44,130 bases of DNA from contig JAAZNW010000041.1 in NCBI GenBank assembly GCA_012798065.1, forward strand, positions 1 to 44,130, in the 5' to 3' direction. Within the stretch, counting starts at the first letter, position 1. Every line of letters starts with the position of its first letter. This stretch comes from Chloroflexota bacterium. Lineage in GTDB: Bacteria > Chloroflexota > Anaerolineae > Anaerolineales > Anaerolineaceae. A program made the position numbers and the translations under genes. The notes beneath the pieces were generated by a model. That model did not search any database, was not told where the DNA came from, and worked only from the letters and a program-made list of their open reading frames with translations. Positions 2,141 to 24,950 of the stretch are shown here, piece by piece.

Positions 2141-2178
2141 AAAAACAACCTGACCACCACAACGGTCAGGTTGTTTTT
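2141..2178. terminator. Bidirectional intrinsic terminator between the membrane-protein gene and dnaA
   Basis: A perfect 15-bp stem, with left arm AAAAACAACCTGACC (2141-2155), an 8-base loop, and right arm ending in TTTTT (2164-2178). The A-run on the left and T-run on the right make it work in both directions. Its right arm overlaps the last codons and stop of dnaA. Confidence 0.9.
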
Positions 2179-3509
2179 CTTCCGTAAAGCTGTTCGCGTA
2201 TTTGCAGCACCTGGCGGCGCAGACGGTCATCTCTTTCGATCATATCCGCCACCTTTTCGCAGGCGTACATCACGGTTGTGTGGTCGCGCCCGCCCATGGC
2301 TTCGCCGATCTGCGGCAGCGACACGTTGGCTTCCTGGCGCAGCAGGTACATAACCACCTGACGAGGTAGAGCGGCTGCGCGTGTGCGGTCGCGCCCCATC
2401 AGTTTTTCAGGGGTAATGCCAAATGCCGATGCCACCACGTTCACCACGTGTGCCTGTTCAAAAGCATTCCGTTGCGGCAAGAGATCGGTTAGCGCCACGT
2501 TGACCAGTTCTTCGCTCAACGGGCGTCCGCGCAGATCCGCGTAGGCCACCACGCGGGTCAGGGCGCCCTCCAGTTCACGGATATTGGATTGGAACTGGCG
2601 CGCGATGATTTCCAGGATGGCTGGGGGAACCGCGTGCCTTGACCGCTCCGCCTTGGAGCGCAGGATGGCGATGCGTGTCTCCAGGTCAGGTGGCTGGATA
2701 TCTGCCGTTAATCCCCACTCAAAGCGTGAGCGCAGGCGTTCTTCCAGCGTGTTCATGGCCTTGGGCGGACGGTCGGAAGAGATGACAATCTGCTTATCCT
2801 GCCCGTGCAGGGTATTGAAGGTATGAAAGAACTCTTCCTGCGTCGACTCTTTGCCGGCGATGAATTGGATGTCATCCACCAGCAGCACATCGATACGACG
2901 ATAGCGGTCACGGAAAGCCTGCGTGGTGTGTGTGCGGATTGCGTTAATCAGGTCATTGGTGAATTCTTCAGATGAAACGTATAACACCTGCTCTCCGCGC
3001 GCCTGGGCAAAGTTGCCAATGGCGTGCAGCAGGTGAGTTTTGCCCAACCCCACACCGCCATAAAGGAACAGCGGGTTATAAGCCTGGGCAGGGTTCTCCG
3101 CCACAGCCAGGCAGGCCGCGTGCGCCAGCCGGTTGGAAGAACCCACCACGAAGTTATCGAAGTTATAACGATGGTTCACCACCGGTTGAGAGCCTGTTAC
3201 GGCGGGAGAGATCAACGGTAAAGGTTCCCCGGTACTGGCTGTCTGCGGCTGGTTTTCGTAATCCTTATGCCAGACGATGAACTCGACCTTTTGAGGGCAT
3301 TCCATGATGCCGCTGAGAATACTGTTAAGTTTTGCGGTCAACCTGGATTTGAGCCAGTCACAGGCGTAAGCGTTGGGCACGCCAACCGTGAAGAGGTCAT
3401 TTTCGTAACGCACCAGTTCGGCAGGCTGTACCCAGGTTTCATAAGATGCGCGCGACATCTCCATTTGGAGTTGTCCAACCGCTGCCTGCCATGCGTTCCG
3501 ATGATCCAA
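2166..3509 (-). CDS. dnaA: Chromosomal replication initiator protein DnaA
   Basis: AAA+ ATPase that binds DnaA boxes and opens oriC. It has an N-terminal helicase-loading domain (WQAAVGQLQMEMSRASYETWV), a short linker, an AAA+ core with Walker A GGVGLGKTHL and Walker B VLLVDDIQF, and a C-terminal helix-turn-helix with GGRDHTTVMYACEKV. The frame extends to a GTG at 3533, but that codon has no ribosome binding site. A GGAGG at 3516-3520 sits exactly six bases before a TTG at 3509, which gives a natural DnaA N-terminus (447 residues). dnaN and recF do not follow; the gene stands alone, convergent with the upstream neighbour. A promoter lies about 150 bases upstream and a near-consensus DnaA box lies in the leader, consistent with autoregulation. 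Confidence 0.97.
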   Translation of the reverse strand: MDHRNAWQAAVGQLQMEMSRASYETWVQPAELVRYENDLFTVGVPNAYACDWLKSRLTAKLNSILSGIMECPQKVEFIVWHKDYENQPQTASTGEPLPLISPAVTGSQPVVNHRYNFDNFVVGSSNRLAHAACLAVAENPAQAYNPLFLYGGVGLGKTHLLHAIGNFAQARGEQVLYVSSEEFTNDLINAIRTHTTQAFRDRYRRIDVLLVDDIQFIAGKESTQEEFFHTFNTLHGQDKQIVISSDRPPKAMNTLEERLRSRFEWGLTADIQPPDLETRIAILRSKAERSRHAVPPAILEIIARQFQSNIRELEGALTRVVAYADLRGRPLSEELVNVALTDLLPQRNAFEQAHVVNVVASAFGITPEKLMGRDRTRAAALPRQVVMYLLRQEANVSLPQIGEAMGGRDHTTVMYACEKVADMIERDDRLRRQVLQIREQLYGRKTT

Positions 3510-3631
3510 CACGCGCCTCCGCCTGGAATTCACGTCACGGACGGGGTAGGTCAGTAGAACCCGCCACTCCAGCGTAAGCAGGGATTGGGAACAGGATATT
3601 CTAGTGGATCCTACAAAGGCTTACCCGAAGC

Positions 3632-9909: not shown

Positions 9910-11061
9910 GTGCCGGTTAATTACCTTCTCCTCAGTCAGCAGATACGCGATATGGGCAGAGATGCTTTATCCCGCGCGGGAGAAATACGTCAAAGCCTTG
10001 AACAGTTATCCGTCCGATTAAATGAAAATGCTGAAAACCTGAAGGGTTTACAGCGCCAGGTGGAGGAAGCCGCGGCAAAAACCAAAGGGCTGCGCTGCGC
10101 TGTTCCGCTGCATGAATCTCTCAACGCGCACTTTCCTTGCACCCTGCCCGCGCCCGCCAGCACCATTTTTGCGGCAGACGGTTCGCAAATCAACCCTGAC
10201 CCGCATGATTCTGTGCTTTATGGGCTGGTCAACATCGGTGTGTTTTGTATCCAACCGCACAGCGGGCGCGTACCGCTGGAGCGGACTGAATCGCATCTTT
10301 TATTTGGAGATGAACTGTACGCCTCCGGAGGAATGGCTTCAGAAGACCTGGTGGCATTACTGCGCGACGTGCAGGAACGCCGCACCCTGGCGCAATTAGC
10401 GCACCTCGCCACCCCGCCTGTGATCACCCTTACTGACGGACCGCTCGAACTGTATCATGAACCGCGGACTGACGCTGCCTTTAAAGAGAAGTTCGAAGAC
10501 TACCTGCGCGCGCTAGACGACCTGGCAATTGCGGATGTGATCACCGCCGGCTACGTCAGCCGGCCGCGTGCCGACCTGGTGGTCAGGCTGCTTACGCTCA
10601 ACGAAGAGAGCAGCCAACCGACTGTCAGCGGCATCAGCGACATTGCCCTTTTTCACAGCATCCTGCAGCCTGGCGAGCGCTCTGCAATTTTCCGCCTGCA
10701 CTCGCGCTCTGCGGATGAGTATAAAGACCGTAAGGCGCTGCATTTTTTCTACCTCAACGTGGGCAGCCCCTCTCGCCCTGCTTTCGCTCGCGTGGAAATC
10801 CCCCAGTGGGTAGCGGAAAATCCGCAATCGGTGCAGACCCTGCACACCACACTGGTGGAACAATCCGCCCTGAGCGGCGAGGCGCCTTACCCCTATCCGC
10901 TCATCCGCGCCCACGAGATTGCTGTCGTAAAGTTAAGCGACCGGCAGCAATTGACCACGATGATCGAAAGCGAACTTGCCCGTCAGGGCATCCTGCCCGG
11001 CAGCAGGTCTGAAAAACAGGTGCATAAAGACCATCCAGGAAGAACGAGGATCAACCCATGA
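9910..11061 (+). CDS. nurA: NurA-domain nuclease
   Basis: 383 residues. Residues 15-60 form a coiled coil. FAADGSQI (87-94, Asp90) and LTDGPLELY (174-182, Asp176) are the metal-binding acidic motifs of the NurA fold, followed by a C-terminal segment with the RNase-H-like layout of the family. NurA is a 5'-3' exo/endonuclease that works with the HerA translocase in DNA-end resection. GTG start with AAGGGG nine bases upstream. Its stop overlaps the next ATG by four bases, and HerA is third in the operon, so a complex of the three products is likely. Confidence 0.9.
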   Translation: MPVNYLLLSQQIRDMGRDALSRAGEIRQSLEQLSVRLNENAENLKGLQRQVEEAAAKTKGLRCAVPLHESLNAHFPCTLPAPASTIFAADGSQINPDPHDSVLYGLVNIGVFCIQPHSGRVPLERTESHLLFGDELYASGGMASEDLVALLRDVQERRTLAQLAHLATPPVITLTDGPLELYHEPRTDAAFKEKFEDYLRALDDLAIADVITAGYVSRPRADLVVRLLTLNEESSQPTVSGISDIALFHSILQPGERSAIFRLHSRSADEYKDRKALHFFYLNVGSPSRPAFARVEIPQWVAENPQSVQTLHTTLVEQSALSGEAPYPYPLIRAHEIAVVKLSDRQQLTTMIESELARQGILPGSRSEKQVHKDHPGRTRINP

Positions 11062-11660
11062 ACGCGATACCTATTGGACGATTACTGCGAGCCAACACGA
11101 CCAGTTGTGTGATGGGCTGCCGTGTCAGCCAGGCTGGTACTCCCCCTTTTGGAGCAATGGTGCTCATCCCTTTGAGCGATGGCACACGCATTTACGGCTT
11201 GGTGTACGACATTCACATCGATGATGACGGTCTGGTGCGCCAGCTGGTCAGCGCGCAGGTTTCCGAGGAAGTGCTGGAGGATAACCGCCAGAACCGCAAC
11301 GTGCCCATCGAGATCAGCCTGGTATTCATTGGCTGGGAGGATAGCGCCGGTCGGGTTTCGCATGCCCGCGTGCCCCGCCCTCCGCTGACACTGGATGAAA
11401 TATTCTTATGCAGTGATGCAGATATCCTGCGCTTCACCAGCAATGCCAGGCTGGGTTACCTGCGCGGCCTACTGCGTAACCAGGAAATACCTGCCGCTGA
11501 CCTGGTGACCGCTCACCTCGTGCAGGTGTTCAAAGTGGCGCATCACCCAGACCCCGAGGGTTGGCGTGACCGCTGCCTGAACGAAGTTATCGCTCTGCTC
11601 AAAGATGATTATCCTCAGTTGATGGACGTTTTGAGCGCAGTCTCAGTGGTGATGGAATAG
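11058..11660 (+). CDS. Small HAS-barrel-like protein between nurA and herA
   Basis: 200 residues. The first 95 residues (PIGRLLRANT, FGAMVLIP, DGTRIYGLVYDI) resemble the beginning of the neighbouring HerA (PIGYVVGGG, GGFVVLES, QFYGLVTDL) in order and spacing, suggesting a free-standing HAS-barrel domain without the ATPase. The remaining part is helical, with no catalytic motif. Translational coupling to nurA by an ATGA overlap and a 14-base gap to herA place it in the same operon. It may be a clamp or adaptor joining NurA to HerA. The likeness was seen by eye and not measured. Confidence 0.75.
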   Translation: MNAIPIGRLLRANTTSCVMGCRVSQAGTPPFGAMVLIPLSDGTRIYGLVYDIHIDDDGLVRQLVSAQVSEEVLEDNRQNRNVPIEISLVFIGWEDSAGRVSHARVPRPPLTLDEIFLCSDADILRFTSNARLGYLRGLLRNQEIPAADLVTAHLVQVFKVAHHPDPEGWRDRCLNEVIALLKDDYPQLMDVLSAVSVVME

Positions 11661-11674
11661 AAAGAGGTAAAAAA

Positions 11675-13423
11675 ATGACAACCGCTGATCTTAACCGCAC
11701 GCTTTCCCCATCAGACCCTGGCGACCGCCCTATTGGTTACGTGGTTGGTGGCGGACTCAAAGCCAACCTCTTTGTTCGGCTTACCCTGCCCGCGCAGGAG
11801 GTGCAGGAGGGCGGGTTTGTGGTACTCGAAAGCGGTAACTGGCAGTTCTACGGCCTGGTCACTGACCTGCAGCTGGGCGCGCTTGACCCGCGCTACGCTG
11901 AACTGCAGAATGCCGCGCGCCTTTCGCAACCCGCCGCCCGTCTGCTGGCCAGCCAAACGCTTTACACCAACCTCGAGGTGATGCCCGCCTTAATGCTCGA
12001 GCGCGGGCCTGAGCCGGGGTCTGCTGAATACGAGGACTGGGCGCGCGAACACCAGGGAGAAAATGCCCCCCGTCCGCTGCCTATCAAGACTGTTCCCTCG
12101 CATCACGCCGTTGCCAGGCTGGCATCCGCCGGTGATGTTGCTGAAATCTTTGGTGACCCGGAATCGAAGGGCTTCTTTATTATTGGGCGCACGCGTGAAC
12201 AGGACCACCCGGTATGCATCAACCTGGATAAGTTTGTGCAGCGCAGTTCGGGCATCTTTGGCGCCACTGGAACCGGAAAATCTTTCCTCACGCGCATCAT
12301 CCTGGCCGGTCTCATTCAACACAACGCCGCCTCTGTGCTGGTGCTGGATATGCATAACGAGTACGGTTTCGATGATACTTCCTCTGACACCGGGCAGGCG
12401 GTTCCGGGGCTCAAAGGCAAATACGCTGAGCGCGTCAGGGTGGTCGGGCTGGGGCGTGAAACCACCATCCGCAAGCGCACCCCAGACCTGCACCTTGAGA
12501 TCTATGAATCTGATATCCAGCCTGAAGATATCGAGCTGCTCTCCCGTGAATTAAATCTCAGAGAGACCACCCCCACCACCCTTGAGGCGCTGGTGCACTC
12601 ATTTGGGCCCAACCGCTGGTATACCGAGTTTAAGAATATGGCTAATGGGGCGACGATCATAGATGATGAAGGGAAAAAAGTCCCCGCCCCCGGCAGTGTG
12701 GCTTTTTGGGCCAACCAGGAAGGGGTGAACGTGGCGGCGGCAGAAGGCTTACATAGCAAGCTGCGCAACGTTTTTAACCGTCCTTATATCATCGAACGCG
12801 ACCCCGCAGACAAGACCGCGGTCAATTCGTTAAACAACATCATCGATACACTCAAGGCTGGCAAGCACGTCGTGCTCTCCTTTGGGGACTTTGAAAAAGA
12901 CCTGGATTACCTGCTGGTTTCCAACCTGCTTACACGCAAGATCCGTGAATCCTGGGAAAAGATGACCAACGATTTTCGCAGCAGCGGGCAAAACGAACCG
13001 CGCCCGCTGGTAATTGCTGTGGAGGAAGCGCATAAAATCTTAAACCGCGAAATGGCCTCACAGACCACTTTCAGCACCATCGCGCGTGAAATGCGCAAAT
13101 ACTACGTCACCTTGCTCATCATCGACCAGCGCCCTTCGCAAATCTACGATGAGGTGATGTCGCAGTTAGGCACGCGTGTTTCTGGCTGGCTGGGAGACGA
13201 GAGTGATATCGCCGCTGTGCTATCTGGTTTGGCCGGGCGAGACTCGTTGCGCGGTATGCTGGCACGCCTGCAGCCCAAAGAGGAAGTGCTCCTGCTGGGG
13301 TGGGGGGTGCCCATGCCCATCCTCGTGCGCTCTCGCCGCTATGACAACCGGTTCTGGGAGGAACTGAAGGGGAAAAACGCGAAACCCGATGTAGAAAAAA
13401 GCCTTTCAGAACTTGGCTTTTAA
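11675..13423 (+). CDS. herA: HerA-family DNA translocase/helicase
   Basis: 582 residues. An N-terminal HAS-barrel-like region (1-100) is followed by a FtsK/HerA ATPase: Walker A GATGTGKS at 196-203, strand VLVLDMHNEYGF after it, Walker B LVIAVEEAHKIL near 446, and a later conserved segment with the sensor and Arg-finger regions (TLLIIDQRPSQI, LGTRVSGWLGDESD). HerA forms a hexameric ring that pumps double-stranded DNA and stimulates NurA. AGAGGT lies upstream of the ATG. It is the last gene of the operon; exonuclease VII genes follow on the other strand. Confidence 0.92.
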   Translation: MTTADLNRTLSPSDPGDRPIGYVVGGGLKANLFVRLTLPAQEVQEGGFVVLESGNWQFYGLVTDLQLGALDPRYAELQNAARLSQPAARLLASQTLYTNLEVMPALMLERGPEPGSAEYEDWAREHQGENAPRPLPIKTVPSHHAVARLASAGDVAEIFGDPESKGFFIIGRTREQDHPVCINLDKFVQRSSGIFGATGTGKSFLTRIILAGLIQHNAASVLVLDMHNEYGFDDTSSDTGQAVPGLKGKYAERVRVVGLGRETTIRKRTPDLHLEIYESDIQPEDIELLSRELNLRETTPTTLEALVHSFGPNRWYTEFKNMANGATIIDDEGKKVPAPGSVAFWANQEGVNVAAAEGLHSKLRNVFNRPYIIERDPADKTAVNSLNNIIDTLKAGKHVVLSFGDFEKDLDYLLVSNLLTRKIRESWEKMTNDFRSSGQNEPRPLVIAVEEAHKILNREMASQTTFSTIAREMRKYYVTLLIIDQRPSQIYDEVMSQLGTRVSGWLGDESDIAAVLSGLAGRDSLRGMLARLQPKEEVLLLGWGVPMPILVRSRRYDNRFWEELKGKNAKPDVEKSLSELGF

Positions 13424-13942: not shown

Positions 13943-14169
13943 GCAGCGTCCTCTGTGGTTTCTTTGTTAGGGTTAAGCTGTTGAATGCGCAGGTCAGCCT
14001 GGTCGAGCAGGGCGGCGCAATATTGAACCAGCAGTTGACCGCGTTCGTAAAGTTGCAATGCTTCGTCCAGCGGTTTTTGTTCGCTTTCCAGCGCGGCGAC
14101 AATGGTTTCAAGTTCACTGAACGCCTGTTCATAACTCAAGTCTGAAAGCGTTGATGCTGATTTAACCAT
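13939..14169 (-). CDS. xseB: Exodeoxyribonuclease VII small subunit
   Basis: 76 residues. LSYEQAFSELETIVAALESEQKPLDEALQLYERGQLL is the typical XseB helical hairpin. It binds the large subunit, and the complex degrades single-stranded DNA from both ends. The frame extends six bases further to a TTG, but GGAGG is spaced eight bases from the ATG at 14169. It overlaps the end of xseA by eight bases and is followed by the PAP2-like gene with another overlap. Confidence 0.95.
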   Translation of the reverse strand: MVKSASTLSDLSYEQAFSELETIVAALESEQKPLDEALQLYERGQLLVQYCAALLDQADLRIQQLNPNKETTEDAA

Positions 14170-15412
14170 CGGCAATCCCTCCGTTACGTTCTGTTGTGGG
14201 CTCGGTTAGCACTTTTGAAAGAATCGCGCCATCGGCAACACGGATATCGAGCACATCCCCGCGGTGAACCTGGCGTACGCTCTTCACCAATACACCCTCT
14301 GCTGTTTTAATGATGGCGTAGCCCCGCTGCAATACCGCCTGCGGGCTGAGATTAACCAGCCGCTTTTGTAAATGAACCAGGTTGCTGCGCATCAGCTCAA
14401 GCCTATGCGCCTGGTTATTAGCGATCCTCGCCTGTAATTCATCAATATGCTGACGGTCATTGCGCACCCGCCACAGCGGAGATTGCAGCTCCAGCCGCCT
14501 GGCGCTATCCTGAACGCGACCACGCTGTGCGCCGCAGATCTGTCGGATGGTGGCGGACAGCAGATTGGCCATATCGCTCAATTTCACCTTGATCTCAGCC
14601 GCGTCGGGCACCACCTGTTCTGCCGCGGCGGTGGGTGTGGCAGCGCGGACATCTGCAGCGAAATCAGCAAGGGTAAAATCTGTCTCATGCCCAATACCAG
14701 TGATCACTGGTATTTGCGAATCCGTGATGGCGCGCACGACTCCTTCGTCATTAAATGCCCACAAATCCTCGAGGGAACCCCCGCCTCTGGCCACAATGAT
14801 GACATCGGCCTGGTTTTGCGCGTTCAGGGCTGCCAGCGATTTCACAATCTGCGGAGGGGCGTCTTCTCCCTGCACCGCGCAGGGCGCCAGAATAACCTGA
14901 ACCAGCGGAAAGCGCCGCTTCAATGTATTCAATATATCCTGCAGCGCCGCTCCGCTGGAAGAGGTGACCAGCCCGATAGCAGACGGTTGTTCAGGTAACG
15001 GGCGCTTTCTTTCAAGAGCGAATAATCCTTCGGCTTCTAGGCGGGTTTTAAGACGCAGAAATTCCTGGTAAAGCGCGCCTTCCCCGGTCAGGCGCAGCGC
15101 ATCCACATAGAGCTGGTACTGCCCATCGCGCTCATAGATGTCTACCCCGCCATGCGCTTCCACTGCCATACCGTTTTGAAGCGTCAAAGGCAGCCGCCAT
15201 GCGGTTTGTTTCCAGATAACACATTTTATTGAAGAAAAAGCATCTTTTAGCGTAAAGTAAATATGCCCTGAGGAGGGTCGCGAAAGGTTGGACACTTCTC
15301 CCTGTACCCACACATCGCTCAGGATCTCGTCAGACTCAAAGAGCGCACGCAGGTAACGCGTGATCTCGCTGACGCTGAGCGTCTTCACCGGGAACAGGGG
15401 TGGTTGCAACAT
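14162..15412 (-). CDS. xseA: Exodeoxyribonuclease VII large subunit
   Basis: About 416 residues. An OB-fold N-terminus (SVSEITRYLRALFESDEILSDVWVQGEVSN, GHIYFTLKD) is followed by the catalytic domain with GLVTSSSGAALQDI, VIIVARGGGSLEDLWAFNDE and the GIGHETDFTLADFAADVRAATPTAAAE motif, then a long helical part that binds XseB and a short C-terminal strand domain (LQRGYAI). The frame extends 12 codons to a TTG, but those codons coincide with the -35 box. The ATG at 15412 is preferred: it begins a family-like N-terminus and lies exactly where a -35/-10 pair predicts the RNA to start. No ribosome binding site is seen. Confidence 0.95.
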   Translation of the reverse strand: MLQPPLFPVKTLSVSEITRYLRALFESDEILSDVWVQGEVSNLSRPSSGHIYFTLKDAFSSIKCVIWKQTAWRLPLTLQNGMAVEAHGGVDIYERDGQYQLYVDALRLTGEGALYQEFLRLKTRLEAEGLFALERKRPLPEQPSAIGLVTSSSGAALQDILNTLKRRFPLVQVILAPCAVQGEDAPPQIVKSLAALNAQNQADVIIVARGGGSLEDLWAFNDEGVVRAITDSQIPVITGIGHETDFTLADFAADVRAATPTAAAEQVVPDAAEIKVKLSDMANLLSATIRQICGAQRGRVQDSARRLELQSPLWRVRNDRQHIDELQARIANNQAHRLELMRSNLVHLQKRLVNLSPQAVLQRGYAIIKTAEGVLVKSVRQVHRGDVLDIRVADGAILSKVLTEPTTERNGGIADG

Positions 15413-15418
15413 AGGGAT

Positions 15419-15448
15419 AGGATAACATCGACCTTGAGCACCTGTCAA
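15419..15448 (-). promoter_or_regulatory. xseA promoter predicting a leaderless mRNA
   Basis: TTGACA (15443-15448, 6/6), an 18-base spacer and TATCCT (15419-15424, 4/6) on the minus strand. Six bases follow before the ATG, so the expected RNA start is the A of the start codon. Confidence 0.65.
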
Positions 15449-21128: not shown

Positions 21129-24100
21129 ATGTCTTTTGCCCACCTTCATGTTCATACTGAATATTCTCTCCTCGATGGCTTCAGCAACATCAAGAAGCTG
21201 ATCCAAAAAGTTAAAGATTTAGGCATGGATTCGATTGCCATCACTGACCACGGCACGATGTTCGGGGTCATTGAGTTTTTTTCCACCGCGGTCGAGGCTG
21301 GGGTAAAACCCATCATTGGCGTCGAAGCGTATGTGGCCGCCCGCCGTATGAGCGACCGCGATCCTCAGAAAGACAAGCACTCGTATCACCTGGTCTTGTT
21401 GGCTGAAAACGAAATTGGTTATAAAAACCTGTTGCAAATCGCTACCGCCGGGCAGCTGGAAGGGTTTTATTACTATCCGCGTATTGACCACGAGTTCCTT
21501 GAAAACCACAAAGAAGGTTTAATCGCCACAACCTCGTGTATGTCTGGCGAGGTTCCGCGTACGATCCTCAACAAAGGAGTGGAAGCCGGGCAGAGAGTGC
21601 TCGAATGGTATATCAACACCTTCGGTAAAGACCATTTCTTCATCGAGTTGCAAAACCATCCCCTGCGCGAACTGCCGGAGTTGAACCGCACATTAATTGA
21701 CCTGGGTAAACGCTATAACCTCAGGTGCGTGGCCACCAACGATTTGCATTACATTGAACAGGAAGACGCGCACCTGCAAGATATTAAGCTCGCCATTCAA
21801 ACGGGGTCACTGCTCTCAGACCCAAACCGCATGAAGATGGGCGCGAACACCTTCTATCTACGCTCACCGCAAGAAATGGCAGCGCTCTTTCCAGACATCC
21901 CTTCAGCCTTGACCAATACCCTTGAAGTGGCTGAACGTTGCAATGTAAACCTCATCCAGAAGGGCTACCATCTGCCTTTGTTTACCGTACCCGATGGATT
22001 CACCCCGCAAACGTATCTCAAAAAACTCTGTGAAGACGGTTTACAGGTGAAATATCCTGGGCGCGTCGATGACCCCGAAGTAAGGCAACGCCTTGAACAC
22101 GAACTGAAGATCATCCACGAAATGGGCTTTGATGCGTATTTTTTGATCGTGTGGGATCTGTGCCGCTACGCTGCTGAAAATAACGTGTGGTACAACACCC
22201 GCGGGTCTGGCGCGGGTTCGATCGTGGCCTACACGCTCAACATCACCCTCATCGACCCCCTCAAGCACGGTTTGTTTTTTGAGCGCTTTCTCAACCCGTC
22301 TCGCATCGAAATGCCAGACATCGACCTTGACTTCGAGGACGACAAACGTTCCCTGATTTTACAATACTGCGCTGAAAAATACGGCAGCGATAAGGTGGCG
22401 CAAATCATCACCTTTGGTACCCTTGGGGCGCGCGCCGCCATCCGTGATGTCGGTCGTGTGATGGATGTACCGCTTTCAGAGGTCGACCGCATTTCAAAGA
22501 CCGTTCCGGCGATGTTCCCCGAGGAAGCGGTGACCATCCCCAGGTCGCTGGAAAAATGCCCTGAGTTCCAGACGGTTTACAGCGAGGGCGGATATGTGAA
22601 AGAACTCATTGATACCGCCTGCCGCATGGAAGGGGTGGCCCGCAACGCCGGCACACACGCTGCCGGAGTGGTCATCACCGACAAGCCGCTGCTGGAGTAC
22701 CTGCCGCTGCACCGCCCAACCAGTAACGCCGAGGAATCTCCCATCAAGTCGGTCACCCAGTTCGAGATGAACATCATCACCAAGCTGGGTCTGCTCAAGG
22801 TGGATTTTTTAGGCCTTTCCACCCTCACGATCATCCACAAAGCCTGTGACCTGATCAAAAAGCGCCACAAGATCGAGCTCAACCTGCACAATATTCCCCT
22901 GGATGACCCGGAGACATTCGAGTTTATCAGCCAGGGGCGCACCGCCGGCCTGTTCCAGCTGGAAGGCAGCGGCATGACCCGATACATCATGCAGATGAAA
23001 CCTCACAACCTGGCGAATATCATCGACATGGTGGCGCTTTTTCGGCCCGGGCCCATGGAAAAAATTCCCAACTACATCAATCGCATGCACGGTGAAGAGG
23101 AGATCACCTACGAGCATCCATTGATGGAGCCAATATTCAAAGATACCTTCGGTTTACCGGTATACCAGGAACAGTTAATGAGGGCCGTGATAGAACTGGC
23201 TGGCTATACGGCTTCAGAAGCAGATAACCTGCGTAAAGCCATCTCCAAGAAGAACAAAAACGCTATTGATGAGCACCGCGTAAAATTTATCGCCGGCGCT
23301 CAGAAGAATCAGATTTCGGCTGTGCAAGCAGAAGAAATCTTCTCCGGGTGGGATAATTTCGCCCGCTATGGTTTCAATAAAAGCCACGCTGCCGATTACG
23401 GCGTTATCGCGGTCGAAACGGCTTACCTGAAGAAGCATTTCCCGGTGGAATACATGACCGCGCTGCTCTCTGCCAATAAAGATGAGAGCACTAAGGTGGC
23501 GTTTTACGTGGCAGATGCCCGCTCGATGGGCATCGAGATCTTGCCGCCTGATGTTAACAACAGCGAATGGGATTTTTGTATAGAAGACGACCCGGATGGC
23601 AGGACAGCCATACGCTTCGGGCTGGGAGCGATTAAAAATGTGGGAATTGGTCCGGTTGATTTGATCTTCCAGGCCAGGCAGGACGGCGGCTTCAAGGACC
23701 TTAACGATTTTATTCGCCGTGTCGACCTGCACAGCGTGGGCAAACGCAGCCTGGAATGCCTGATCAAGGTTGGCGCGTTGGATCGTTTTGGCCCGAGGCG
23801 GGCTCTGCTGGAAGTGGCAGACACCCTCGTTTCAGTCAGTAACAGTCACTTCCGTGCTGCGGAATGCGGTCAGATGAGCATCTTTGGCAACGCGACCGGT
23901 TTGGAAGATGAGATTCATTTGCCCGTTGGCGTTCAACTGGACCGCCGCCTGCAACTCGAATGGGAAAAAGAACTGTCGGGTATGTATATATCCGATCACC
24001 CCATCTCTCATTATCTGCCGCTTATCCGCCAGAAAGCCACTCACGCCACCAAGGAACTGGTTGAAGCCGAGCACAAACAAAAGGTCAGTGTTGCCGGTAT

Positions 24101-24950
24101 GGTCACCCGTATCCGTTCGCTAACCACCAAGACGGGCAACCAGATGGCCTTTGCCACCATTGAAGACCTGCAGGGTGAGGTTGAACTGGTCATCTTCCCC
24201 AAAGCCTGGGAAAGAATGGGCGCGTTGGTCAAAATGGAATCCGTTATCCTGGTGGAAGGCAAGGTGGACCTGGATAAATCTGACCCCAAAATACTGGTGG
24301 ATGTGATCAAAGCCTTGCGCGAGGAGGATATCCCGACTGACGAAACGCCTTCAGACCGTCCTTTCGCTCACGGGCAGGAAGGTACCTGGCAAACCGATAT
24401 TGACACCATACGCTATACAGACCAGGCAGAGAGTTATGAAGAGCCACCGATCTCAGAAGAAGAATCCTCCTGGCAGGTTCCTACACCCCCTGCGGATCAC
24501 CACGCGGCGCCTCCCACGCCTGATACAGATGTGGTGCCCTCCCCTGCGACTGACCTGCCGCAGGAGGAAGCCGTTTCTCCGTCAGCGCAGCAACCCCGCG
24601 AAAACGTTGAGACCAAATTTGATACGCCACCCCGCGATTACATCCTTCCGCCAGTGATCATGTCGCCAATAAAAACACCGCCCAACACAGCAGCGCCCGG
24701 TGGAACCAGGTTAGTGACGGTAACCATCAAATCCAGTGGTGAAAAGGAACGAGACACACGCCGAATCCACCGGGCGCATGGCCTGCTCAATTCTTTCCCG
24801 GGTCAAGACCGTTTCTGTTTTTTGGTGTATGAGCACGGTTACCGGCACTTGCTGGATTTTCCGAACCACACGACCAACGCTACCAAAGAACTGGTCGAGC
24901 AGTTGGCTGAGCTGGTAGGCAGAGAGAACGTTCAGGTTGAAAACCTGTAA
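21129..24950 (+). CDS. dnaE: DNA polymerase III alpha subunit
   Basis: 1273 residues, longer than the roughly 1160 of enteric DnaE. N-terminal PHP domain (HLHVHTEYSLLDG, ITDHGTMFGV), then the C-family polymerase with the catalytic aspartates in PDIDLDFED (about 395-403) and LKVDFLGLSTL (about 556-566), fingers with RPGPMEKIPNYI, a helix-hairpin-helix and an OB-fold (VAGMVTRIRSLTTKTGNQMAFATIEDLQGEVELVIFP, about 980-1020). The extra length is a Pro/Glu/Thr-rich linker of about 110 residues (near 1080-1190) and an 80-residue C-terminal domain. It is the replicative polymerase core. There is no clear ribosome binding site before the ATG. pfkA follows after ten bases. Confidence 0.97.
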   Translation: MSFAHLHVHTEYSLLDGFSNIKKLIQKVKDLGMDSIAITDHGTMFGVIEFFSTAVEAGVKPIIGVEAYVAARRMSDRDPQKDKHSYHLVLLAENEIGYKNLLQIATAGQLEGFYYYPRIDHEFLENHKEGLIATTSCMSGEVPRTILNKGVEAGQRVLEWYINTFGKDHFFIELQNHPLRELPELNRTLIDLGKRYNLRCVATNDLHYIEQEDAHLQDIKLAIQTGSLLSDPNRMKMGANTFYLRSPQEMAALFPDIPSALTNTLEVAERCNVNLIQKGYHLPLFTVPDGFTPQTYLKKLCEDGLQVKYPGRVDDPEVRQRLEHELKIIHEMGFDAYFLIVWDLCRYAAENNVWYNTRGSGAGSIVAYTLNITLIDPLKHGLFFERFLNPSRIEMPDIDLDFEDDKRSLILQYCAEKYGSDKVAQIITFGTLGARAAIRDVGRVMDVPLSEVDRISKTVPAMFPEEAVTIPRSLEKCPEFQTVYSEGGYVKELIDTACRMEGVARNAGTHAAGVVITDKPLLEYLPLHRPTSNAEESPIKSVTQFEMNIITKLGLLKVDFLGLSTLTIIHKACDLIKKRHKIELNLHNIPLDDPETFEFISQGRTAGLFQLEGSGMTRYIMQMKPHNLANIIDMVALFRPGPMEKIPNYINRMHGEEEITYEHPLMEPIFKDTFGLPVYQEQLMRAVIELAGYTASEADNLRKAISKKNKNAIDEHRVKFIAGAQKNQISAVQAEEIFSGWDNFARYGFNKSHAADYGVIAVETAYLKKHFPVEYMTALLSANKDESTKVAFYVADARSMGIEILPPDVNNSEWDFCIEDDPDGRTAIRFGLGAIKNVGIGPVDLIFQARQDGGFKDLNDFIRRVDLHSVGKRSLECLIKVGALDRFGPRRALLEVADTLVSVSNSHFRAAECGQMSIFGNATGLEDEIHLPVGVQLDRRLQLEWEKELSGMYISDHPISHYLPLIRQKATHATKELVEAEHKQKVSVAGMVTRIRSLTTKTGNQMAFATIEDLQGEVELVIFPKAWERMGALVKMESVILVEGKVDLDKSDPKILVDVIKALREEDIPTDETPSDRPFAHGQEGTWQTDIDTIRYTDQAESYEEPPISEEESSWQVPTPPADHHAAPPTPDTDVVPSPATDLPQEEAVSPSAQQPRENVETKFDTPPRDYILPPVIMSPIKTPPNTAAPGGTRLVTVTIKSSGEKERDTRRIHRAHGLLNSFPGQDRFCFLVYEHGYRHLLDFPNHTTNATKELVEQLAELVGRENVQVENL

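Follow-up and report, generated by a model that had tools for sequence, protein, structure and literature searches.

A conserved HAS-barrel-type gene between nurA and herA in Chloroflexota, probably the third part of a DNA-break repair machine

The contig JAAZNW010000041.1 of a Chloroflexota bacterium (assembly GCA_012798065.1; 44,130 nucleotides, the window) carries a small gene between nurA and herA, here called the middle gene. The three genes occur together in many Chloroflexota and some haloarchaea, and for this reason the middle gene is probably the third part of a DNA-break repair machine. The genes form an operon and are co-inherited with matched subtypes across the phylum, and the second of two subfamilies of the middle gene occurs in an mre11-rad50 context. 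The middle protein is a HAS barrel by predicted fold. Loci (L) and genomes (G) are cited by number, and papers are cited for the portions of their text covered here.

9910..11061, + strand: nurA, NurA nuclease, GTG start, 383 amino acids
11058..11660, + strand: middle gene, predicted free-standing HAS-barrel protein, 200 amino acids
11675..13423, + strand: herA, HerA DNA translocase, 582 amino acids

The operon and its inheritance

The open reading frames and their lengths, the ATGA overlap of nurA with the middle gene and the 14-base gap before herA, as listed in a first-pass annotation of the window, were all reproduced in an open reading frame check. Conservation was followed in 101 genomes (genus, family and order of the source, own genome counted) and in 400 genomes of the phylum, which was taken as Chloroflexota from named relatives, the best 80 of 204 confirmed ones. 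The named relatives of its middle gene mark the source genome as Anaerolineaceae-like. The middle gene is a real coding sequence, kept in 88 of the 101 genomes, with one protein match each in 87 and two pieces in G009; NurA was found in 90 and HerA in 87, and all three were missing in 11. NurA occurred without an initial middle-protein match in G050, where only a fragment of it is present, at the end of a contig, and in G098, where a second-subfamily middle gene lies between divergent nurA and herA (L089). In two genomes with the middle gene and NurA and no HerA match (G053 and G063), 2.8 and 0.6 kb of contig, respectively, follow the middle gene. Of the 88 middle-gene loci, 86 have nurA upstream in the same orientation (exceptions, L071 and L077). 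Among the gaps that could be measured, 71 of 84 between nurA and the middle gene and 57 of 74 between the middle gene and herA were 50 bp or less, with no opposite-strand pair. The three genes are also adjacent in the isolate Ornatilinea apprima (L169).

Twenty loci came from NurA-positive genomes lacking an initial match; 11 carry the second subfamily downstream of nurA, and of the remaining nine genomes seven have it elsewhere and two (G189 and G271) yielded none. The two subfamilies are homologous (hhalign probability 97.4, E 1.1e-11, 157 of 218 columns). Across the 400 genomes, the subfamily 1 profile matched 157, the subfamily 2 profile 74, both 12, and NurA 236. A middle gene of either subfamily was present in 219, with NurA in 216 and without it in three; 20 genomes had NurA only and 161 had neither (Fisher p 2.2e-84, kinship uncorrected). 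Subfamily 2 was first found beside NurA, so this count depends partly on the route of discovery, though the search was genome-wide. The middle gene stands together with nurA or herA in 217 of 234 loci, where subfamily 1 goes with type-1 and subfamily 2 with type-2 partners and none of the 217 is mixed; some genomes enter this pairing twice, and part of the same loci went into building the profiles. Pairwise distances of the three proteins correlate over 41 loci (r 0.72-0.82) but, having no unrelated control gene, are not counted as evidence. Gene fusions were absent among the 234 loci, in that no open reading frame of at least 60 residues matched two of the three profile kinds. The first-pass annotation had proposed to check whether the gene order is conserved across Chloroflexi; the middle gene is kept beside nurA and/or herA, and more widely than that annotation expected, in several Chloroflexota classes and on haloarchaeal plasmids.

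A five-gene mre11-rad50-nurA-middle-herA run on one strand was found in 11 bacterial loci of the phylum (L175, L177, L178, L180, L181, L182, L185, L188, L189, L202 and L234) and on three haloarchaeal plasmids, together 14 of the 39 listed loci of type 2. When a subfamily 2 protein was searched against plasmids with tblastn, four records were obtained, all haloarchaeal and all with the gene annotated as "hypothetical protein". Halophilic archaeon DL31, Natrinema zhouii and Halobaculum marinum share one gene order, metallophosphoesterase (Mre11-like), SMC ATPase (Rad50-like), NurA, hypothetical and HerA, and in Halorussus salilacus the last part of the run lies at the record end.

Other loci hold parts of the run. 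L179 and L184 carry mre11-rad50-nurA-middle gene and no herA within the stretch. Thirteen loci retrieved around the middle gene (L215-L227) have it beside herA, with nurA outside the stretch and, where placed, elsewhere in the genome or on a different contig. In L170, L186 and L187, nurA adjoins rad50, and neither herA nor a HAS gene is nearby; the HAS gene is elsewhere in these genomes, in two of them seen beside herA (L215 and L216), and the five-gene cluster has therefore split. The reverse case occurs in type 1, with nurA and the middle gene together and herA elsewhere in the genome (L032, L041, L043, L052, L054, L076 and L088). The middle gene thus stays with whichever partner remains, as expected of a protein that touches both NurA and HerA. 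A gene for SbcD lies downstream in three type-1 loci (L072, L073 and L229) and on a different contig in the source genome.

Some copies are irregular. In G015 a single in-frame stop falls within nurA and the operon is otherwise complete. In a UBA6107 genome (L022/L097) the middle gene is split between two frames and herA is broken into two pieces, which reflects either sequence errors of the assembly or a decayed copy. Anaerolinea thermolimosa IMO-1 has the operon region twice, 56 kb apart, on a 116-kb contig (NZ_DF967970.1; L133 and L134); the copies are identical across all 10,606 bases compared and represent either an assembly duplication or a very recent duplication.

Fold of the middle protein and identity of its partners

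The middle protein matched no family in Pfam, NCBIfam or PADLOC. Its AlphaFold2 model (predicted local distance difference test, pLDDT, 84.1; predicted template modelling score, pTM, 0.81) was divided using DSSP into two parts:

11058..11438, + strand: predicted HAS barrel and linker helix of the middle protein, residues 1-127
11454..11654, + strand: predicted C-terminal helices of the middle protein, residues 133-199, at the position of HerA's ATPase

In the model, strands within residues 3-54 are followed by helices at 57-65 and 70-79, strands at 83-94 and 114-117 and a helix at 120-127; the C-terminal helices span 133-140, 146-158, 166-180 and 185-199. Confidence is lower over residues 51-80 (block pLDDT 65-71). 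In a VIA structural search with the model, rows 1-26 were HerA-family chains and later rows mostly ATPase barrels, with the alignment in some rows extending into the distal C-terminal region of the chain. The HAS-barrel fold (the beta barrel of HerA and ATP synthase) that the first-pass annotation had proposed is thus what both structure prediction and VIA return, and no unrelated fold emerged. At the curated cut-off of the Pfam HAS-barrel family (PF09378) the window's middle protein had no match; at E<=0.1, 10 of 36 family members matched (best 0.0067) and, in subfamily 2, one of 14 (best 0.01). The protein is accordingly classed as a HAS barrel by predicted fold and not as a member of the PF09378 sequence family. 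A sequence-profile search of the PDB returned no HerA barrel for either subfamily, the best match of subfamily 1 being a DUF4297 protein (E 0.084), with none for subfamily 2. Judged from the closely similar topology of the model, the middle protein may descend from HerA, to which it has no significant sequence match. The structure alignment comprised the window and 77 of 80 loci, excluding L097 (broken frame), L124 (no start found) and L134 (duplicate of L133); for the diversity alignment, 36 rows were picked from complete genes of the first 88 loci.

The partners were identified by domain. NurA matched PF09376 (3.2e-24; 86.2 bits, cut-off 21) and has the NurA domain; D90 and D176 (window 10177-10179 and 10435-10437), which we take from the NurA family to be catalytic residues, are identical in at least 97% of 81 aligned sequences. 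HerA matched DUF87 (PF01935, 1.7e-27), barely exceeded the cut-off of HerA_C (22.1 against 22 bits) and has Sulfolobus HerA (4d2i, 1.4e-17) among its PDB relatives. Together with the DUF87/HerA central domain it has both Walker motifs of a HerA translocase, and an N-terminal HAS barrel:

11729..12151, + strand: HerA's own HAS barrel and linker, residues 19-159
12260..12283, + strand: HerA Walker A, residues 196-203, GATGTGKS
13010..13033, + strand: HerA Walker B, residues 446-453, VIAVEEAH

HerA residues 1-190 were aligned for the window and 67 of 80 loci (L134 and loci without a usable herA start excluded). Since HerA retains its own barrel, the idea that the barrel was transferred from HerA to the small gene was ruled out. 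A virus or phage origin was also rejected for subfamily 1, which has no relatives among viral contigs or phage records.

Proposed function and its rivals

On balance, we favour the reading that the three genes encode one DNA-end-processing machine in which the middle protein connects NurA with the HerA ring as a HAS-barrel subunit. In such a machine the ring translocase would pump duplex DNA and the nuclease would receive it. In the Deinococcus HerA hexamer, the HAS barrels are the putative pore exit and hold the NurA dimer, each NurA contacting four HerA subunits (PMC9960219). A free HAS barrel encoded between both genes most simply adds at this junction. The middle protein, which would be a HerA N-terminal-like domain lacking the ATPase and with C-terminal helices in the motor's place, most likely packs on the side of the ring formed by the HAS barrels, to which NurA is docked in the known two-part complexes. 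Its small barrel would lie against the HerA barrel with the helices facing NurA, and these helices may hold or gate NurA, coupling nuclease to translocase. Its binding, its stoichiometry, the face of HerA used and any effect on resection are inferred. The first-pass annotation had likewise described an adaptor in a three-part machine; predicted fold and gene conservation speak for it, and the adaptor role and physical complex stay putative.

Several observations weigh against this reading. NurA occurs without a middle-gene match in 20 of the 236 NurA-bearing genomes; eight of these have weak NurA matches (E >1e-8), and 12 have good ones, five of them in genomes at least 91% complete (G112, G189, G197, G343 and G384), so the partnership of NurA and the middle protein is near-constant, not absolute. 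The middle gene is apart from both partners in L193 and in L231, where nurA is on a different contig. An hhalign comparison between the middle family and HerA N-termini was not significant (probabilities 15.8 over 23 columns, 3.8 and 0.9), for which reason the link to HerA rests on predicted fold. HerA-NurA of Deinococcus, Thermus and archaea has been described as functional without a subunit of this kind, which is thus not essential to the basic reaction.

It is possible, if rather unlikely, that the middle protein is instead a regulator or chaperone of NurA that binds the nuclease and holds it inactive, or stabilises it, until being displaced by HerA. Translation coupled directly after nurA would suit such a role (33 of the 84 measurable gaps are exactly -4), as would the capacity of a free HAS barrel to mimic HerA, HAS barrels being the natural docking surface of NurA. 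In subfamily 1 the gene adjoins nurA more often than herA (86 against 74 of 88 loci, some stretches being too short for herA), and the seven type-1 loci with herA elsewhere keep it with nurA; a partner of NurA only does not, however, predict the 13 loci in which it remains by herA with nurA elsewhere. Less likely again is a place in the HerA ring itself, as a motorless HerA subunit that forms a mixed ring or a removable barrel opening the ring for loading. The predicted topology closely resembles the HerA N-terminus, including the helices inserted before the fifth long strand, and six HAS barrels form the pore rim of the HerA hexamer (PMC9960219); the middle protein has, however, a C-terminal helical part of its own, and in subfamily 1 its nurA linkage is at least as close as its herA linkage.

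The first-pass annotation had left repair and defence side by side, and the evidence leans to DNA-end processing by HerA-NurA with the middle protein, because of the mre11-rad50-nurA-middle-herA runs, the single chromosomal gene, near-universal in the order of the source and placed among housekeeping genes, and the NurA partner. A phage-defence module of the HerA-effector kind is improbable: HerA matches PADLOC HerA profiles (best 2e-30), HerA-SIR2 and HerA-DUF4297 complexes are defence systems, and a 2026 Thermococcus paper suggests an antiviral role of HerA-NurA (PMC12977600), but the partner here is NurA, with no PADLOC match and no SIR2- or DUF4297-type effector at the locus, HerA scores far below the cut-offs of the NCBIfam anti-phage HerA models (NF042943, 70 against 800 bits; NF042944, 61.7 against 850), and subfamily 2 accompanies mre11-rad50. 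Defence genes are usually patchy in distribution, and the middle gene, which lies among dnaA, xseA, gatB and dnaE, is kept in 88 of the 101 genomes and gives one match each in 87 of these.

The operon was compared with known systems. The two-part HerA-NurA of Deinococcus radiodurans and of Thermus (there nurA-hepA) is similar in its NurA and HerA ring, a HerA with its own HAS barrel and neighbouring genes. In Thermus strains with complete nurA, however, its stop overlaps the hepA start with no gene between (PMC5448004), and only two proteins plus a contact to RecJ are described in Deinococcus (PMC9960219, PMC4663267), whereas here nurA and herA are not alone in the unit and the interposed third HAS-barrel gene is kept across the phylum. 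The herA-nurA-mre11-rad50 operon of thermophilic archaea has the same four functions in one run as subfamily 2 loci but lacks the fifth, HAS-barrel gene found between nurA and herA in Chloroflexota and the three haloarchaeal plasmids; the Thermococcus complex is described without a third subunit (PMC12977600). HerA-SIR2 and HerA-DUF4297 share a HerA translocase with a docked effector, and their HerA chains are the best structural matches of the middle protein, but they differ in effector, in the core chromosomal distribution seen here and in the extra free-standing barrel. The HAS barrels of F1/V-type ATPase subunits are remote, and no ATP synthase genes were linked in the scanned parts of the window. 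The covered portions of five papers on two-part HerA-NurA in Deinococcus-Thermus and archaea (PMC9960219, PMC5448004, PMC4663267, PMC12977600 and PMC7776575) mention neither a third HAS-barrel subunit nor Chloroflexota, and no publication on the middle protein was found in the HerA-NurA and HAS-barrel literature as covered, a 2004 FtsK-HerA survey that may mention solo HAS barrels lying outside the search.

More tentatively, the operon could represent a second major form of HerA-NurA, with a dedicated motorless, HerA-like HAS-barrel subunit that would be a near-constant partner of NurA throughout Chloroflexota and of mre11-rad50-nurA-herA operons in some haloarchaea; the subunit would set the seat of the nuclease on the ring and hence one- or two-strand cutting. 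The function of HerA-NurA is debated, both as to 3' overhang formation and as to whether ends are resected at all; the 2026 Thermococcus study observed cleavage of both strands and suggested a role other than resection, and the only bacteria it names, in the portions covered, are Deinococcus-Thermus (PMC12977600). In the phylum studied here, a different one, NurA is present in 236 of the 400 genomes and is accompanied by the third gene in 216. Such a widespread form, its third subunit assignable by fold, offers a concrete missing factor for HerA-NurA resection assays and, if the reading is true, a role for a protein annotated as hypothetical in four haloarchaeal plasmid records.

Two observations concern other lineages and pathways. 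The genes listed as restricted to UCYN-A1 include one for a protein with a HAS barrel domain and one for a protein with a NurA domain (PMC12234771), a lead that cyanobacteria could have the same partnership. PF12705 (PDDEXK_1) is missing in 41 of the 400 genomes, 34 of which are NurA-positive (Fisher p 7.5e-4, kinship uncorrected), a hint that HerA-NurA may replace AddAB/RecB-like resection in some lineages, PF12705 being too broad to equal AddAB.

Window neighbourhood

Ten neighbours of the operon were scanned, of which dnaA, mntP, a DUF212 gene, xseA, an HIT gene, gatB, an amidase-family gene and dnaE were named. Genes near the operon with coordinates in the window are:

2169-3533: dnaA
6465-6719, + strand: ATL-type gene, PF01035 match
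14165-15448, - strand: xseA, exonuclease VII large subunit
21129-24947: dnaE, DNA polymerase III alpha

The exonuclease VII and ATL genes reported earlier as neighbours of the operon are both present, with the DUF212 gene between herA and xseA. A conserved linkage to exonuclease VII was rejected: xseA occurs in just 13 of 80 loci, some with short flanks, and its position is therefore local synteny.

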